NCBI GenBank assembly: GCA_023252195.1
Contig: JAHEXI010000002.1
Span: 1-64,000, forward strand
Origin: Pseudonocardiales bacterium
Lineage (GTDB): Bacteria; Actinomycetota; Actinomycetes; Mycobacteriales; Pseudonocardiaceae
DNA length: 64,000 bases
Direction of reading: 5' to 3'
The position numbers were made by a program, and so were the translations under genes. This document shows, one piece after another, positions 4,607 through 55,865 of this stretch. Within the stretch, counting starts at the first letter, position 1. Each line of letters starts with the position of its first letter. The notes below the pieces were generated by a model that saw only the letters and a program-made list of their open reading frames with translations, was not told the origin of the DNA and did not search any database.

Positions 4607-5554
4607 TCAGTTCAAGTGCAGGGTGGCTACTACTGGCCGGTGGTCGGATCCTGGTTCGTCGCGGCGGGTGGTGGGTGTGTCGGTGATGGAGGGAATGTCG
4701 AGATCACCGGTGGTCAGGTCACCGTCGCGCACACCGCGCTCTACAGCGTGACTGACCAGGATGTGATCGATCAGCTCGCGCTGGCCATGGTAAATGCGGG
4801 TGAAGCGCTGTGCCGGTGGGATTCGGGGTGCGAGGTTCCACAGCCGCGATCCGTCGCCGTGGTCAGGGTGGTCATGGCCGGGGGTGCCGATCTCCGAGCC
4901 GGGTGGGCCGAGCAGGATCTGGGTGGTCGCGGCTTGTGGTTCGTCGTTGAGATCACCCAGGACGATCACCGCGCGGTTTTGGCCCTGGCCGCCCAACAGC
5001 TCGGTGGCATAGGCCCGGACGGTGGCGGCTTCGGCGGATCGTCGGTTGAGTGCGTACACCGCGAAGCGGGCCCGCTGGTCCTCATCGCGGGGCGAGAACC
5101 GGCCGCCGGAGAAGGTGAGCAGCTTGGACTTCAGATGGCACGAAACCAGATCCAGCGTTCGCCCGGCCAGCTCGACCTGGACATGCAGTGCTGGGCGACC
5201 CATCAGGCTGATGGTGGTGTCGGTGTCGTCGACCTGGATAGGGCGCAGCTGGGGGAGGAACTCGCGGACCTGGTTCACCCGATCTAGGGGGAGCTGGGAG
5301 AGGAACCCGACTCGGATACCGCGTCCATCAGGATCGGCCAGCTCGCTGCGCCAACCCGGACCCAGTCGGTCGATCAGATCCTTGAGCGCCTCGGGCTCGC
5401 CCACTTCCTGTACGGCCAAGACGTCGGGGGCCAGCTTGGTGATCGTTTTGGCCAGCGCAGTCAGCGTTGCCTCGTAGGCCTGCTCGGATTTCGGCCCGGC
5501 CTCGCTACCGGGCCGGAAAAGGTTTTCCAAATTCCAGGTACCAACCTTGACCAC
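4607..5554 (-). CDS. endonuclease/exonuclease/phosphatase family protein
   Basis: A 315-residue hydrolase of the EEP fold. All family motifs are visible: WNLEN (7-11), metal-binding Glu50 in VQEVG, HLKSK from His140, GDLND (200-204), IDHI around 262-265 and SDHRP from 303. The fold cleaves phosphodiester or phosphomonoester bonds with a divalent metal; the substrate here is unknown. The GTG start at 5554 has an AGGCGG-like ribosome site. There is no signal peptide, so it is probably cytoplasmic. It converges on the rox fragment and seems to be one of the few intact genes of this decayed stretch. Confidence 0.85.
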   Translation of the reverse strand: MVKVGTWNLENLFRPGSEAGPKSEQAYEATLTALAKTITKLAPDVLAVQEVGEPEALKDLIDRLGPGWRSELADPDGRGIRVGFLSQLPLDRVNQVREFLPQLRPIQVDDTDTTISLMGRPALHVQVELAGRTLDLVSCHLKSKLLTFSGGRFSPRDEDQRARFAVYALNRRSAEAATVRAYATELLGGQGQNRAVIVLGDLNDEPQAATTQILLGPPGSEIGTPGHDHPDHGDGSRLWNLAPRIPPAQRFTRIYHGQRELIDHILVSHAVERGVRDGDLTTGDLDIPSITDTPTTRRDEPGSDHRPVVATLHLN

Positions 5555-22749: not shown

Positions 22750-22788
22750 GTGGCAAACAGTGTTATAGCACTCAACGCCACTCACGAG
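22743..22788. repeat. palindromic element family A, copy 1
   Basis: CTCGTGAGTGGC and its exact complement GCCACTCACGAG enclose a 22-base centre with AGTGTTATAGCACT as a nested hairpin. The stop codon of the preceding gene lies in the left arm. Near-identical copies are at 29998-30043 and, reversed, at 47991-48036. It may end transcription. Confidence 0.9.
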
Positions 22789-22816
22789 CATCCGGTGCAT
22801 CATGATGCACCGGATG
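22789..22816. promoter_or_regulatory. 28-base perfect palindrome before vapBC, candidate operator
   Basis: CATCCGGTGCATCA is followed directly by its exact complement, with no spacer. It ends 13 bases before the GTG of the antitoxin gene and adjoins the family A element. VapB proteins bind such dyads as dimers, alone or with toxin, to repress their own operon. Confidence 0.75.
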
Positions 22817-22829
22817 CTAGACTAGCTCG

Positions 22830-27140: not shown

Positions 27141-27204
27141 TTCCCGAACTTCACAGCAGCGCTCTTGCGGATTAGCTAAACAGCGCTGCTGTGAAATTCG
27201 GGAA
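27141..27204. repeat. palindromic element family B, copy 1
   Basis: Arms of 23 bases with one mismatch, from TTCCCGAACTTCACAGCAGC to its complement, around an 18-base loop. It sits between the convergent vapC and epimerase genes. A related element sharing TTCCCGAACT and CACAG is at 41253-41305. The outer arms could stop transcription from both sides. Confidence 0.9.
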
Positions 27205-30569: not shown

Positions 30570-30633
30570 CGCAGTCTGGATGCAGAACGTGCCTCAGCGG
30601 GCCTGTTTTAGCGCGTTCTGCATCCAGACTGCG
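30570..30633. repeat. 20-base-arm palindrome between marR and mutase (family D)
   Basis: CGCAGTCTGGATGCAGAACG at 30570-30589 and its exact complement at 30614-30633 flank a 24-base loop. Unlike the other palindromes it lies between divergent starts, 30 bases from marR and 72 from the mutase ATG, so an operator or RNA leader hairpin is as likely as a mobile palindrome. No second copy was seen. Confidence 0.85.
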
Positions 30634-40997: not shown

Positions 40998-41312
40998 ATG
41001 ACCTACATCAGCAGCTCGTCGGTGCAGATCGGCGCGTGGGCAACGGTGGGCGCCAACAGTGAGATCACCTACCACGTCCTGCCGGACGCTGACATGATCG
41101 AGTTCACTCTTGGTGGCCGAAACGGGCTGGACCTGGAGATGAGCCGGGACGGCCCACGCCGCTGCGTCGCGACCTTCACCGAGGCGCTCAACGCCTACGA
41201 TGCCGCCAGGGCTGAATATCGCTGTGCGCATGACGCGCTCAATGCTCTGTGGTTCCCGAACTCCACAGGAGAGCTTCTGGAGCAGCTCTGTTGTGGAGTT
41301 CGGGAGGCTTAG
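40998..41312 (+). CDS. small hypothetical protein beside the XRE/DUF397 pair
   Basis: A 104-residue acidic protein of unknown family (ITYHVLPDADMIEFTLGGRN, then VATFTEALNAYDAARAEYR). It is transcribed away from the XRE gene, a common arrangement in these loci. The last 20 residues (FPNSTGELLEQLCCGVREA) are encoded inside palindromic element B2, so the original C-terminus was probably replaced when the element arrived. Function unknown. Confidence 0.6.
   Translation: MTYISSSSVQIGAWATVGANSEITYHVLPDADMIEFTLGGRNGLDLEMSRDGPRRCVATFTEALNAYDAARAEYRCAHDALNALWFPNSTGELLEQLCCGVREA
41253..41305. repeat. palindromic element family B, copy 2
   Basis: TTCCCGAACTCCACAG and the matching CTGTTGTGGAGTTCGGGA arms pair nearly perfectly around an inner GAGAGCT/AGCTCT stem with an 8-base loop. 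It shares its outer arm with 27141-27204. It lies within the 3' end of the + gene and just before the stop of the convergent maltokinase gene. Confidence 0.85.
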
Positions 41313-50123: not shown

Positions 50124-52682
50124 ATGAGAGCACTGCGCCGGTTCATCGTCCGGGCCCAGCTGCCGGGACCGCTGGCAGCCCTGGAGACGTTGGCCGCCAA
50201 TCTGCGGTGGAGCTGGCACCCGCCGACCCAGGACTTGTTCGCCTCCCTGGACGAGGGAACGTGGGCCGCCGTCAACGGGGATCCGATGCGGCTGCTCGGT
50301 GAGATTCCGACCCGTCGGCTCACAACGCTGGCCGCCGACGAGACGGTGGTGGCCCGCACCCACGCGCTGGCTGACGATCTGCGCCGTTACCTTGACGATC
50401 CCCGGTGGTACCAGCAGCGCGCGGAAGCACTGCCGGCGGCGATCGCCTACTTCTCCATGGAGTTCGGCGTCTCCGAGGTGCTGCCGTTCTACTCCGGTGG
50501 CCTGGGCGTGCTGGCGGGCGACCACCTCAAGGCGGCCTCAGACCTGGGGGTGCCGCTGATAGGCGTCGGTCTGCTCTACGGCTCGGGCTACTTCCGCCAG
50601 TCGTTGTCGCTGGACGGTTGGCAGCTGGAGCATTACCCAGTCCTGGATCCGCAGGGTCTGCCGCTGCACCTGCTGGTCGACGCCGCCGGCGCGCCGCTGC
50701 TGGTGGGAGTCAACGTGCCCTGCGGACGGGTGCTGAGCGCGCGAATCTGGCGGGCTGACATCGGGCGGGTTCCGTTGCTGCTGCTGGACTCAGATATAGA
50801 GGACAATCCGGATGACCTGCGCGGGGTCACCGACCGGCTCTACGGCGGCGACCAGGACCACCGGATCACCCAGGAGATCCTTGCCGGGATCGGCGGAGTC
50901 CGTGCGGTGCGGATGTTCTGCCAGCTCACCGGCCATCCCGAACCTGAGGTGTTCCACACCAACGAGGGTCACGCAGGCTTTCTCGGCCTGGAACGGATCC
51001 GTGAGCTGATCACCGACGACGGGCTGAATTTTGACGAGGCCTTGGCTGCGGTGCGTGCCGGCACCGTATTCACCACGCACACCCCGGTGCCCGCCGGGAT
51101 CGACCGCTTCCCGGTCGACCTGGTGCGCCACCACTTCGTCGGATCATCCAGCGCTGGGTCCTCGAACGGCGCTGCGCTGCTGCCTGGCGTCGACGTCAAC
51201 CGGGTGCTGGCGTTGGGTGCCGAGGACCACGGCGGGATGTTCAACATGGCGCACATGGGGCTACGTCTGGCCCAGCGCGCCAACGGCGTCTCGCAACTGC
51301 ATGGTGCGGTGTCCCGGGCGATGTTCCGTGGGTTGTGGCCACAGTTCGACGTCGAGGAGGTGCCGATCGGATCGGTCACCAACGGGGTGCACGGCCCGAC
51401 CTGGGCGGCGCGCGAGCTCGCCGGTGTGCTCGGCGAGTCCGACGATGGCAATGCGGCCCTGTCGGCGCCTGACTCAGTTCTGTGGGACCTTCGCTGCGTA
51501 CTGCGCGCCAAACTGGTGGAAGACGTGCGCCGGCGGGTCCGGGCCGCGTGGTTGGAGCGCGGTGCCTCCGCGCCGGAGCTGGGCTGGACATCGCGGATCT
51601 TCGATCCCCAGGTGCTCACGATGGGTTTCGCCCGCCGGGTGCCCACCTACAAGCGGCTCACCTTGATGTTGCGCGACCCCGAACGGCTCCGGGCCTTGCT
51701 GCTGGATCCACAGCGCCCGGTGCAGTTGATCATCGCCGGCAAGTCGCACCCAGCGGACGATGGTGGCAAGGCGCTGATCCAGCAGGTGGTGCAGTTTGCC
51801 GACTCGCCGGACGTGCGGCACCGGATAGCGTTCCTGCCCGACTACGACATGTCGATGGCCCGGTACCTGTACTGGGGCTGCGACGTGTGGCTGAACAACC
51901 CCCTGCGGCCGTTGGAGGCGTGCGGCACCTCGGGGATGAAGTCCGCACTCAACGGTGGGTTGAACCTGTCCATCCGGGACGGCTGGTGGGATGAGCTCTA
52001 CGACGGCCGCAACGGCTGGGCCATCCCGACTGCCGACGGCGTCGAGAATCCGGAGCGGCGTGACACCCTGGAAGCCAACGCGCTTTACGAGCTGATCGCA
52101 ACGCACCTCGTCCCCGAGTTCTACGACCGGGGCGCCGACGGCGTGCCGACCAGCTGGGTGACCATGGTGCGGCACACCCTGGCCACGTTGCGCCCGCAGG
52201 TCCAAGCCTGCCGGATGGTGCAGGAGTACGTAGAGCGGCTCTACGCGCCGGCCGCCGGCTCGGCGGCAGCAGTGCGCGCCGACTCCTTCGCTGGGGCCCG
52301 CGAGCTAGCGCGATACCGGTTGCGGGTCGGCGCGGCCTGGCCTCGGGTCCGGGTGGCGCAGGTGGACATTTCCGGCCTGCCGGACACGCCGGAGCTGGGC
52401 TCGGAGATGACGGTCCGCGCGGCGGTCGTGTTGGCCGGGCTGAAGCCGTGCGACGTCGACGTCCAGGTCGTGGTCGGGCGGGTGGACGACCGGGAGGAGT
52501 TGCAGGACCCGTTGGTGGTGACCATGCAGCCGGCTGGCGAAGCGGATGGCGACAGCGACCGATTCGAGGCGACGTTACGGCTGCCGCACGCCGGATTGGT
52601 CGGATACACGGTACGCGTCCTGCCGCAACACCCGCTGATGGCTGTCCCAGCCGAGTTCGGCCTCCTCCACCTGGCCACCTGA
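50124..52682 (+). CDS. glgP: alpha-glucan phosphorylase
   Basis: An 852-residue phosphorylase that releases glucose 1-phosphate from glucan ends using pyridoxal phosphate. [20 protein letters not shown], the substrate loop NEGHAGFL and [17 protein letters not shown] with the cofactor Lys are all present. This is the actinobacterial short-type enzyme. It counters GlgE, whose gene is divergent. The gene ends 6 bases before palindromic element C1. Confidence 0.95.
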
Positions 52683-52687
52683 GCCCT

Positions 52688-52750
52688 TGATCACGGTTTG
52701 TGTGTCCAGGACGACATGCCGTGTCGTCCGTGACACACAAACCGTGATCA
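52688..52750. repeat. palindromic element family C, copy 1
   Basis: TGATCACGGTTTGTG arms and their complement enclose an inner GACGACA/TGTCGTC hairpin. The element is 63 bases, just after glgP and 79 before the AbiEi/DUF559 gene. Copy 2 is at the other end of that gene. Confidence 0.92.
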
Positions 52751-52828
52751 CTGGGGTGGGCTGTCCACACCCAGGGTGCTGTCCACAGCGCGAGTGCACG
52801 GACGCTTCGGGCGGTCGCTGATTCGGCG

Positions 52829-53719
52829 ATGCTCGCGCTCATGTTGATCGAGGAACTCGCGGATTCGCACGACGGAGTGCTGACCCGGGACCAGGCATTG
52901 CGCGGCGGGCTGACGTTCCCGCAGGTGCAGCATCGGGTCCGCATCGGACGGTGGATCACGCTTCATCCAGGAGTCTATCTGGTCGGGCGTCGCGAACCTG
53001 ACCAGCAGGCTTGCACGCGGGCGGCCGTGGCGTGGGCGGGTTCGGGCGCCGTGGCGAGCGGATTGACGGCAGCCTGGTGGTGGGGCCTACGGGACTGCGC
53101 ACCCGGCGCCGCTGAGGTGACCGTGCCCCGGGCGCGATCTCCTCGCCTCGCGGCCGGGGTGGCGGTGCGCCGCCGGAACCTCGATCCGCCGGATCTGATC
53201 GTGTTGCGCGAGCTGCCGGTGACCGCGCTGCCGCTCACCGTCCTCGACGCGGCGGCGGCACTGGGTAGCGACTCCGGGCGGCCGCTGGTCGATCAGGCGT
53301 TGCAGTGCCGGGTGTCGTTCGCCGAACTGCACGACGCGTACTGCCGATCATCTGGCAGGCACGGATCGCCGTGGCTGGGGAAGGTACTGCGGCAGGCGGC
53401 AGATGGAGCTAGCTCGGATGCCGAACGGATCCTGCACCGGCTGCTCCGAGGTGCTCGGATCGACGGCTGGGTGGCCAACCACCTGGCGGTACTGTCCGGA
53501 GCCGAGTACTGGATCGACGTCGCCTTCGTGGCGCGCCGGCTGGCCGTCGAAGTTGATGGCTGGGCATGGCACTCCGACGTCGACCGGTTCGCCCACGATC
53601 GGCGCCGGCAGAACGCACTGGTGCTGGCGGGGTGGACGGTGTTGCGCTTCACCTGGCACGACCTGATGTCGCGGCCGCAGGCCGTGGTAGCCGAGATTCG
53701 CGAGGCCCTTCGGGACTGA
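52829..53719 (+). CDS. AbiEi-like antitoxin/DUF559 endonuclease-fold protein
   Basis: A 296-residue protein. The N-terminus (GVLTRDQALRGGLTFPQVQH, then GVYLVGR) is the winged helix of type IV antitoxin AbiEi_4. The C-terminal part (YWIDVAFVARRLAVEVDGWA, then HDRRRQNALVLAGWTVLRFT) is DUF559, a Vsr-like nuclease fold with possible acidic site E-V-D. Known relatives are widespread in actinobacteria and of unclear role. It stands alone, without an AbiEii toxin gene. Two palindromes of one family bracket it exactly, the right one overlapping its stop. Confidence 0.85.
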   Translation: MLALMLIEELADSHDGVLTRDQALRGGLTFPQVQHRVRIGRWITLHPGVYLVGRREPDQQACTRAAVAWAGSGAVASGLTAAWWWGLRDCAPGAAEVTVPRARSPRLAAGVAVRRRNLDPPDLIVLRELPVTALPLTVLDAAAALGSDSGRPLVDQALQCRVSFAELHDAYCRSSGRHGSPWLGKVLRQAADGASSDAERILHRLLRGARIDGWVANHLAVLSGAEYWIDVAFVARRLAVEVDGWAWHSDVDRFAHDRRRQNALVLAGWTVLRFTWHDLMSRPQAVVAEIREALRD

Positions 53720-53779
53720 TCACGGTTTGTGCTTCCAGGACGACACGCTGTGTCGCGGAAGTCACACAGATCGTGATCA
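53717..53779. repeat. palindromic element family C, copy 2
   Basis: TGATCACGGTTTGTGCTTCC begins the left arm and the right arm ends GATCGTGATCA; the inner hairpin is GACAC/GTGTC. The element begins with the TGA stop of the AbiEi/DUF559 gene and ends 13 bases before the stop of the convergent glgX. Confidence 0.9.
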
Positions 53780-53792
53780 CGCGGGTTTGGGA

Positions 53793-55865
53793 TTACCCGC
53801 GGACGGCGCGGAAGAGCAGCAGGCTTCGGGCGGGGACTGTCATCCGGGTCCCCGGGCGCCGGCTTCGCGGATGGGTGGGCACGCCGTCCGGGGATCCGGT
53901 GTCCAGCACCGGTTCATACCGCTCGCCGTACTCCCGATCCGGCAGCGTGACCATGATCGGGTGGGCACCGGCGTGCAGCACCAGCAGCCACGAATCAGTG
54001 ACCGGCGGTGGCGGGTGGGACCGCACGTCGGTGCCGTCGATCCACATGCTGAGCGTCCGAAGATCGCCGTCTTGCCAGTCGCCGAGCTCCATGGGGCGCC
54101 CGTCGGGATGCAACCAGACCAGGTCGGGCGTGCCGCCAGGAGTGGTGCGACCCTCGAAGAACTCCGGTTGGCGCAACGCGGGTGTCGTGGTGCGCAGCGC
54201 GATCAGGCGGCGAGTGAAAGCGGTCATCATCTCGCTGTCCGGATCGGCGAACCAGGCCAGCCAGGACGTCTCGTCGTCGAGCCGGTAGGGATTGTTGTTG
54301 CCGCCCTGGGTGCGCCAGCGTTCGTCACCAGCCAGCAACATGGGCGTGCCGGTGGACAGCACCAGGGTGGCCAACAGGTTGCGCGCCTGGCGCGCGCGCA
54401 GCTGGCGCACCGCCGGATCCTCGGTGTGGCCCTCGACGCCGCAGTTCCAGGAACGGTTGTCATCGGTGCCGTCGGCGCCGCACTCACCGTTGGCCTCGTT
54501 GTGCTTGCGGTTGTAGGAGACCAGATCCCGCAGCGTGAACCCGTCGTGCGCGGTGACGAGGTTGATCGATGCCCACGGCCGCCGGCCACTTGCCGCGTAG
54601 AGGTCCGAGCTGCCCGCCAGCCGGGAGGCGAGCTGGCTGACGCCGGGAACGCCACGCCAGAAGTCCCGCACGACGTCGCGGTAGCTGCCGTTCCACTCAC
54701 TGAAATGCACACCGAACCCACCGACCTGGTAGCCGTCGCGAGTGGCGTCCCACGGCTCGGCGATGAGCTTGCGGGTGCGCAGCAGCGGATCAGAGGCGAT
54801 CGCTGTGAGTAGGGGGGCGGCCGGGTCGAACGGTCCGCCCCGGGGGCGCCCCAGCACGCTGGCCAGATCGAGGCGGAACCCGTCGACGCCCAGCTCGCCG
54901 GCCCAGTACCGCAGCGCGTCGGTGACCAGAGCAACCACCATGGGCGAGCCACTGTTGAGGGTGTTGCCGCACCCGGTGAGGTCCTGGCGGAGGTAGTAGG
55001 CGGGCGCGTCCAACCCCCGGTAGGCCAGGGTGGGCCCAGTCACGTCACCCTCACAGGTGTGGTTGGCCACCACGTCGACGATGACCTCCAGGCCCGCGGC
55101 GTGCAGCGCGGCCACCATCGTGCGGAACTCCGCCACCTCCTCGCCGGGCACTGCGGCGTATCCCGGATGCACCGCGAGCAGGGCCAGCGGCGAGTAGCCC
55201 CAGTAGTTCGTCAGCCCTGCGCGCAGCAGCAGCGGCTCTGGGCAGAACGCGGATACCGGCAGCAGTTCCACGGTCGTGATACCCAGATCGGTGAGATAGG
55301 AGGTCACCGCAGGGTGGGCTAGCCCCAGATAGGTGCCACGGTGCTTGGGGGGAACCTCCGGATGGGTACGGGTGAAGCCGCGTACGTGCAGCTCGTAAAG
55401 CACCGTTTGCTCCCACGGCACGTCGGGCCGGGTTCCGGTGTCCGGGCCGCCACGGGCAGTGACCACCGATACCGGGACGCTGCCTCGCGAGTCGATGAGG
55501 CTGCGTGGGCCGGCGGGATCGCCCTGGTAGCCCAGCGCGGCCCGCAGATCAGTCACGCTGCCCTCGATCCGCAGCGTATAGGGGTCGATCAGTAACTTGG
55601 CAGGGTTACACCGGAGCCCACGCGGAGGGTCCCACGCCCCGTGCACCCGGTAGCCGTAGCGCTGCCCGGGGCCCACCCCGGTCAGCAGCCCGTGCCACAC
55701 CCCGAAGGTGTGTTCCGGCAGCGGCACCCGCAGCTCCCCGCCATCCGTGGACAGCAGGCAGACCTCAACCGCCTCGGCGACCGAGGAAGCCACCGCGAAG
55801 CGCACCCCGCCGCCCTCGGCATGTGCGCCGAGCGGGAATGGTCGACCAACTTGCGGGCGGCTCAT
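53793..55865 (-). CDS. glgX: glycogen debranching enzyme
   Basis: A 690-residue GH13 enzyme that hydrolyses alpha-1,6 branch points, mostly after phosphorylase trimming. DGFRLDLASVLGRPRGGPFD carries the catalytic Asp, KLIAEPWDA the Glu and VTAHDGFTLRDLVSYN the third acid. It matches actinobacterial GlgX/TreX. It runs convergent with the AbiEi/DUF559 gene and divergent from the ABC gene, whose start lies 81 bases away. It completes a GlgB-GlgE-GlgP-GlgX set in 20 kb. Confidence 0.95.
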   Translation of the reverse strand: MSRPQVGRPFPLGAHAEGGGVRFAVASSVAEAVEVCLLSTDGGELRVPLPEHTFGVWHGLLTGVGPGQRYGYRVHGAWDPPRGLRCNPAKLLIDPYTLRIEGSVTDLRAALGYQGDPAGPRSLIDSRGSVPVSVVTARGGPDTGTRPDVPWEQTVLYELHVRGFTRTHPEVPPKHRGTYLGLAHPAVTSYLTDLGITTVELLPVSAFCPEPLLLRAGLTNYWGYSPLALLAVHPGYAAVPGEEVAEFRTMVAALHAAGLEVIVDVVANHTCEGDVTGPTLAYRGLDAPAYYLRQDLTGCGNTLNSGSPMVVALVTDALRYWAGELGVDGFRLDLASVLGRPRGGPFDPAAPLLTAIASDPLLRTRKLIAEPWDATRDGYQVGGFGVHFSEWNGSYRDVVRDFWRGVPGVSQLASRLAGSSDLYAASGRRPWASINLVTAHDGFTLRDLVSYNRKHNEANGECGADGTDDNRSWNCGVEGHTEDPAVRQLRARQARNLLATLVLSTGTPMLLAGDERWRTQGGNNNPYRLDDETSWLAWFADPDSEMMTAFTRRLIALRTTTPALRQPEFFEGRTTPGGTPDLVWLHPDGRPMELGDWQDGDLRTLSMWIDGTDVRSHPPPPVTDSWLLVLHAGAHPIMVTLPDREYGERYEPVLDTGSPDGVPTHPRSRRPGTRMTVPARSLLLFRAVRG

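Follow-up and report, generated by a model that had tools for sequence, protein, structure and literature searches.

Between two glycogen genes of a Pseudonocardiales bacterium lies a single gene for an AbiEi-DUF559 protein with a palindrome at either end, and the arrangement raises the question of what joins a nuclease-type gene to two copies of one palindrome. The window, meaning the whole analysed stretch of 64,000 nucleotides, is part of contig C41 of a genome of 4.74 Mb in 48 contigs (G000 below), and the closest named relatives of the gene come from Pseudonocardiales and Pseudonocardiaceae MAGs. The reading that we consider probable is that the gene and its two palindromes belong to a class of small, selfish actinobacterial elements that work in the manner of REP/RAYT elements with an unrelated enzyme.

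The window locus and its protein

The locus is made up of the following features:

50124-52682, forward strand: alpha-glucan phosphorylase (glgP-like), the host gene on the upstream side of the insertion
52688-52750, forward strand: left (5') cognate palindrome of family F1, from repeat, hairpin and DNA-similarity searches
52829-53719, forward strand: AbiEi-DUF559 gene, 296 aa, from Pfam, profile search, structure model and Foldseek
52844-53164, forward strand: residues 6-112, AbiEi_4 winged helix and AbiEi_1 match, from Pfam and from Foldseek to AbiEi 6y8q and Rv2827c 1zel
53411-53710, forward strand: residues 195-294, DUF559/MTES_1575 nuclease domain, from Pfam, alignment and profile search
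53717-53779, forward strand: right (3') cognate palindrome of family F1, overlapping the stop codon of the AbiEi-DUF559 gene
53793-55865, reverse strand: glgX for glycogen debranching enzyme, the convergent host gene on the downstream side of the insertion

The initial annotation had placed both palindromes correctly to the base, and its AbiEi-DUF559 gene between them, in the glgP-glgX interval, is borne out by Pfam and by the annotated neighbours. The palindromes are each 63 bp long, 80% alike and in direct orientation, and belong to a direct-repeat family (D1, 70 nt). The left copy, separated from the glgP stop codon by 5 nt, consists of outer arms (TGATCACGGTTTGTGTG..), a variable bulge, an inner CGACA/TGTCG stem and a 5-nt loop, its 29-nt arms being 93% complementary with 5 nt between them; as a 63-mer query against its own genome it recovered the right copy at E 1.5e-10. 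The sequence TGATCACGGTTTGTG occurs exactly three times within the window, each time at the two bracketing palindromes; with up to 3 mismatches it has 5 matches against 1.04 expected, one of them outside the pair at 4924, a number reached by 1 of 100 shuffles. The window also holds a perfect 32-bp palindrome, AGCATCCGGTGCATCATGATGCACCGGATGCT (22787-22818), present as a single copy in the 444 kb of C41 searched.

Pfam finds AbiEi_4, AbiEi_1, DUF559 (PF04480, E 2.3e-12) and MTES_1575 in the window protein, and residues E199, D230, E241, D243, H248 and D257 are unchanged across all 71 aligned sequences. An AlphaFold2 model built from these 71 sequences has a mean pLDDT of 90 and a pTM of 0.77, with residues 245-248 below 50. 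Foldseek matches its N-terminal part to AbiEi (6y8q, E 9.2e-7) and Rv2827c (1zel, E 8.7e-6) and its nuclease part to I-Bth0305I (3r3p, E 3.5e-4, TM 0.75 over the target), a homing endonuclease that is the nearest solved nuclease apart from a DUF559 protein; in a profile search that DUF559 protein (3hrl) scored 1.5e-12 and 3r3p 4e-6. As modelled, the protein is thus an AbiEi-like N-terminal part joined to a Vsr-fold nuclease akin to I-Bth0305I, and PMC3710099 assigns MTES_1575 to the Vsr REase fold. AbiEi and Rv2827c are described (PMC7319586) as binding inverted repeats in their own promoters. Since relatives of the N-terminal part bind inverted repeats and relatives of the nuclease include a selfish endonuclease, the protein would be an inverted-repeat-binding type of domain fused to a selfish type of nuclease, encoded beside cognate palindromes.

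The protein shares with the AbiE type IV toxin-antitoxin system an AbiEi winged helix and the domain following it (6y8q, 1zel), but differs in that no AbiEii (DUF1814) toxin gene adjoins, the flanking genes being those for alpha-glucan phosphorylase and GlgX, and a nuclease is fused instead. One might suppose a solitary AbiEi-nuclease fusion that defends against phages, with the palindromes as regulatory or decoy sites, and the PADLOC AbiEi models do match the window protein (best 2.7e-24). We hold this to be extremely improbable: both neighbours are glycogen genes without a partner toxin, no homologue was found in 50,697 phage records at 1e-10 and a single one among 72,556 plasmid records searched at 1e-15, and the dispersed palindromes described below would go unexplained. 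Phage or plasmid cargo was rejected on the same record searches. In the window protein and eight relatives (nine proteins scanned), Pfam found no Transposase_17 match and neither a DDE nor a HUH transposase domain; the matches were to AbiEi, DUF559, MTES_1575 or Vsr, with one protein lacking any match. Membership of the RAYT family was rejected for want of a Transposase_17 match.

Palindrome pairs at related genes

The initial annotation had asked whether DUF559 genes elsewhere are flanked by this palindrome. They are flanked by palindromes, though by families of their own, and the idea of one palindrome for all DUF559 genes was rejected. The window protein has nine matches in its own genome, which correspond to eight DUF559-type loci, and alignment of each locus's own 5' and 3' flanks reveals a palindrome pair at six of them, each of another family (F1 to F6), three in direct and three in inverted orientation. 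Local flank scores are 34-52 at the six paired loci and 14 and 12 at the two unpaired ones. For these scores the 5' flanks were longer and the better-scoring orientation of the two was taken, which was not so for the 685-ORF control set used below. The unpaired loci are a second copy of the window gene, frameshifted, and a fragment; the F2 gene carries one in-frame stop. A PF18741 search gave two extra weak matches, on contig C5, both without hairpins at threshold. The frameshifted copy (C31:531856-532739; L018, L020) keeps a 5' F1 palindrome, lacks the 3' one and is syntenic with an uninterrupted copy in genome G008 (L034).

A wider sample was drawn by protein similarity alone, a contig scan yielding 496 relatives of which the best 80 were kept and 78 were usable. 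With a hairpin score of at least 11.5 near the gene end as threshold, 61 of these 78 (best 80 of 496) have a hairpin at either end, compared with 68 of 672 control ORFs of the same loci, and 29 of the 78 have one at both ends, compared with 2 of 672; 17 of the 78 show no palindrome at threshold at either end. In 56 of the 78 relatives the gene's own 5' and 3' flanks are more alike than those of 99% of 685 control ORFs; the top control ORF scored 53, which no DUF559 gene exceeded. Genes of the same length placed at random in 73 loci gave at most 6 in 1000 runs, against 54 of 73 observed (score of at least 13). Chance is ruled out by the window shuffles, the control ORFs and the random placement. 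The palindromes are mostly 40-65 bp long, the 5' copy lies about 25-125 bp ahead of most gene starts, and the two palindromes at the 29 both-end loci are direct in 15, inverted in 11 and tied in 3.

Palindrome and protein diverge together. Across 51 genes, a Mantel comparison of protein identity with palindrome similarity gave r 0.62, the best of 2000 permutations reaching 0.19, a correlation to which shared ancestry contributes. In 18 palindromes of GATTY..RAATC shape (17 mycobacterial, one from locus L059), the ends are constant and positions 6-13 vary by gene and mostly remain complementary, with the qualification that these rows were hand-picked for that shape, which biases the pair counts. 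The length was re-tested free of that choice on 50 mycobacterial loci, searched for GATTY...RAATC in which 10 or more of the 13 outer positions pair, any length of 35-65 being allowed: 44 of 100 flanking zones hold such a palindrome (32 of 50 genes have one, 12 have both), and 44 of 44 are 49 nt long. In F1, of which 22 copies were compared, the bulge is the variable part, and the ends are constant, as is the inner GACA/TGTC stem.

Occupancy, dispersal and siting

The glgP-glgX interval could be read in 10 of 11 genomes of the genus, halves and pieces being judged by eye. It holds the cassette in G000, G001 and G007 and a remnant in G008 (half a palindrome and the gene tail) and G005 (half a palindrome). 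G009 has both an F6-like palindrome and an F1-like piece, G002 has an F1-like end, and G003, G004 and G006 have no palindrome. In G007, glgP takes its stop codon from the palindrome, as judged by eye. Cassettes that lie elsewhere allow the edges of the unit to be placed: BLAST homology between the window and the G010 cassette runs over 52688-53779 and that with the G008 cassette over 52689-53778, in both cases from palindrome edge to palindrome edge, and that with the G003 copy over 52671-53686, with ends that do not match the palindrome edges. The site of the G010 and G003 cassettes, read from the right flank, has neither gene nor full palindrome in G005, G001 and G008. A palindrome-gene-palindrome unit stands at three sites within the genus, occupying some homologous sites and missing from others, and the initial annotation's moveable cassette holds up in this respect, with matching edges in G010 and G008 and not in G003. 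The compared sites, whose flanks are too diverged, showed no clean target-site duplication, and no empty/filled pair among them revealed how insertion proceeds chemically; the direction of each single gain or loss is something we infer. In G051, a genome of another genus (L042), the glgP-glgX interval is occupied by a DUF559 gene, 42% identical, that has another palindrome pair, which would reflect either a hot spot or a very old residence with full palindrome turnover.

An empty site with a single palindrome, which the initial annotation had suggested looking for between glgP and glgX, was not found there and turns up for a sister family, F3: its gene site is palindrome-gene-palindrome in G000, one trimmed palindrome in G008 and, in G005, a reversed gene with a palindrome on each side, as read at two contig ends. 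F8-type palindromes occupy the F3 site in G001 and G006. These three states of the F3 site are compatible with homing, in which the palindromes would spread by some other route and be the target of the DUF559 gene as a homing endonuclease gene, a solo palindrome being cut and the gene copied in by repair to give palindrome-gene-palindrome, in either orientation since the target is symmetrical. The position of I-Bth0305I as the nearest solved nuclease besides a DUF559 protein and the unfixed orientation of the pairs also agree with homing. We nonetheless think homing unlikely as the whole explanation, as it leaves unaccounted for both the joint divergence and the abundance of solo palindromes only with the cognate gene, seen in two lineages below; moreover, the single-palindrome state could also arise by recombinational loss of the gene, and the F3 inversion by recombination between inverted palindromes. 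On the preferred reading of a REP-like element, homing of the gene into its own palindrome may contribute to that element's cycle.

Dispersed palindromes are evident in the window's own genome. As a DNA query, the left F1 palindrome gave 26 strand matches at 16 places, two of them at the window gene, and coordinate comparison puts the remaining 14 more than 5 kb from any of the eight DUF559-type loci. The initial annotation had counted palindromes occurring equally often away from the gene as speaking against it, and by that line, with 14 of 16 F1 copies elsewhere, its idea would have failed; the same distribution is what a REP-like element predicts. A solo F1 palindrome of G000 is also present in 4 of 9 readable relatives (decayed in one) and absent in 5. 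Hairpins scoring at least 14 number 33 in the searched 444 kb of C41, of which 10 are single and 23 recur within the 444 kb, and all 23 were assigned to F1-F6 or to two gene-less families, F7 and F8, for which a cognate gene was looked for in the own genome and not found. The C41 hairpin search places three of these solitary palindromes in the window:

27141-27204, no strand: solitary palindrome of family F7 (TTCCCGAACTYCACAG..)
41254-41305, no strand: second solitary F7 palindrome
30570-30633, no strand: solitary palindrome of family F8 (..TCTGGATGCAGAACG..)

At one intergenic spot (L161:18450-18602), G000 has a short F4 array and G003, G007, G002 and G009 have other palindrome families.

The extent of dispersal varies between lineages. 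The palindrome of a Mycolicibacterium septicum cassette gave 73, 10, 59 and 82 strand matches (two of these counts being "at least") in four genomes with like cassettes, most places being counted once per strand, so that the places number in the tens in three genomes and about five in the fourth; the four were picked for their like flanking palindromes, and the informative part is the copies beyond the flanking pair. None was found in 10 mycobacterial genomes with other DUF559 loci. G099, which belongs to another family and is assembled in a single contig, carries its cognate palindrome at 18 places; it is found in 0 of 13 other genomes, a genus mate included. The second DUF559 gene of G099 has a different palindrome pair. 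Two G099 palindromes 1.03 kb apart enclose no DUF559 gene. Of 61 genomes searched for F1, 8 contain it, and these all belong to its own genus (8 of the 11 there). In G004 and G006 there are F1 palindromes but not the 80%-identical gene; in G003 the gene is present without F1 matches at threshold. The Rhodococcus SMB37 palindrome is confined to its flanking pair, with no dispersed copies and no match in 9 other genomes. Palindrome abundance therefore follows the cognate gene in two lineages, does so more weakly in the own genus and shows no dispersal in one Rhodococcus, dispersed copies being found only in genomes that have the cognate gene or belong to the same genus. Outside the actinobacteria, a 45-bp palindrome overlaps the start side of E. 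coli K-12 ycjD, a DUF559-only gene (L320:5758-5802), on one side only; it is matched in 3365 of 5426 E. coli genomes at a median and a maximum of 2 strand places, with no dispersal and no further chromosomal copies in E. coli.

Many copies sit at the ends of host genes. In the mycobacterial family, 20 of 20 copies (best matches, three genomes) lie within 8 bp of a gene 3' end predicted by a codon-GC heuristic, and the 3' end of the upstream neighbour faces the cassette palindrome at 33 of 47 loci, 31 of these within -12 to +31 bp. F1 copies are sited more loosely: of 35, 14 are no more than 30 bp away from a predicted 3' end and 5 are inside a predicted ORF. This siting bears on the suggestion that the palindromes are regulatory only, an operator and a terminator with autoregulation by the AbiEi domain, the dispersed copies being other sites of the regulator or old relics. 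The promoter binding by AbiEi and Rv2827c (PMC7319586) and the position of the 5' copy ahead of most starts accord with it, but a 3' copy resembling the 5' copy is not predicted, nor is homology of a transferred unit that ends at the palindromes, and the solo mycobacterial copies lie behind stop codons and not in promoters; we therefore regard regulation alone as very unlikely. An ordinary terminator plus operator as the whole story was rejected, the 5' and 3' copies being alike and copies being dispersed.

A probable REP-like element with a Vsr-fold nuclease

The closest known parallel in organisation is the RAYT/REP system, for which PMC2817692 describes a gene between two palindromes, joint divergence, palindrome abundance with the cognate gene and palindromy kept by paired changes (see also PMC3733652). 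The elements studied here are alike in the single gene flanked by two palindromes (not universally at our threshold), in the joint divergence of gene and palindrome, in abundance with the cognate gene and in the palindromy kept, and short arrays occur here too (F4). They differ in their enzyme and hosts, since RAYTs are HUH tyrosine transposases (Transposase_17) found, according to PMC2817692, in gammaproteobacteria, whereas here an AbiEi domain is joined to a Vsr-fold nuclease in actinobacteria. The palindromes here are also longer, mostly 40-65 bp, and their arrangement is not consistently inverted as that of the RAYT pair is.

With Vsr-like or EDxHD homing endonucleases such as I-Bth0305I the likeness lies in the nuclease fold and the selfish lifestyle. 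I-Bth0305I is a mobile-intron protein with a unique target site, whereas here the DNA-binding part resembles AbiEi and the candidate site is the palindrome that belongs to the element itself. In IS200/IS605, MITEs and other small mobile repeats, non-autonomous copies are dispersed with a cognate enzyme. The present elements resemble IS200/IS605 and MITEs in this respect and differ in that the whole repeat is one palindrome and not two terminal repeats.

Beyond the anatomy, cognate pairing, joint divergence, dispersed copies, unit boundaries and presence or absence observed here, we infer the chemistry of binding, cutting and movement. The autonomous form would be palindrome-gene-palindrome and the solo form the same palindrome, dispersed. 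The AbiEi-like N-terminal part would bind the arms of its own palindrome family, by analogy with AbiEi antitoxins on inverted repeats, and the Vsr-fold C-terminal domain would then nick or cut at the palindrome, after which repair or strand transfer could place a copy of the palindrome, or of the entire cassette, at a new intergenic site. With target sites directly after stop codons, as in one mycobacterial family and most cassettes, insertion would do no harm, and the hairpin may terminate the transcript. Solo palindromes would have been moved in trans or would remain after loss of the gene between its two repeats. That the nuclease could act on such palindromes, as the initial annotation proposed, fits the cognate pairing as a candidate activity, and the nuclease is likely to be the driver of the REP-like element class.

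Whether this amounts to a new route of DNA mobility, in which AbiEi-guided Vsr-fold nucleases spread their own palindromes and genes as several independent cognate pairs per actinobacterial genome, with the arms (mycobacterial positions 6-13 of 49) as a fast-changing specificity code for the N-terminal domain, is in our estimation an evenly balanced question. Among the open-access literature matches listed, there is no description of DUF559/AbiEi nucleases tied to palindromic repeats, an absence that is not proof, and the open-access search found no paper on AbiEi together with DUF559; a REP-like element class with an AbiEi-DUF559 nuclease is unnamed and looks undescribed. DUF559/AbiEi genes match models whose names denote an antitoxin or a protein of unknown function, and these genes would now gain a likely role. 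Gene-plus-cognate-palindrome elements would then include a second class of enzyme that is not related to HUH transposases, and the elements described here could explain the origin of dispersed gene-end palindromes in mycobacteria and their kin. The many natural protein-DNA pairs (51 compared here), together with the fixed 49-nt layout in mycobacteria, would make the recognition code readable and testable.
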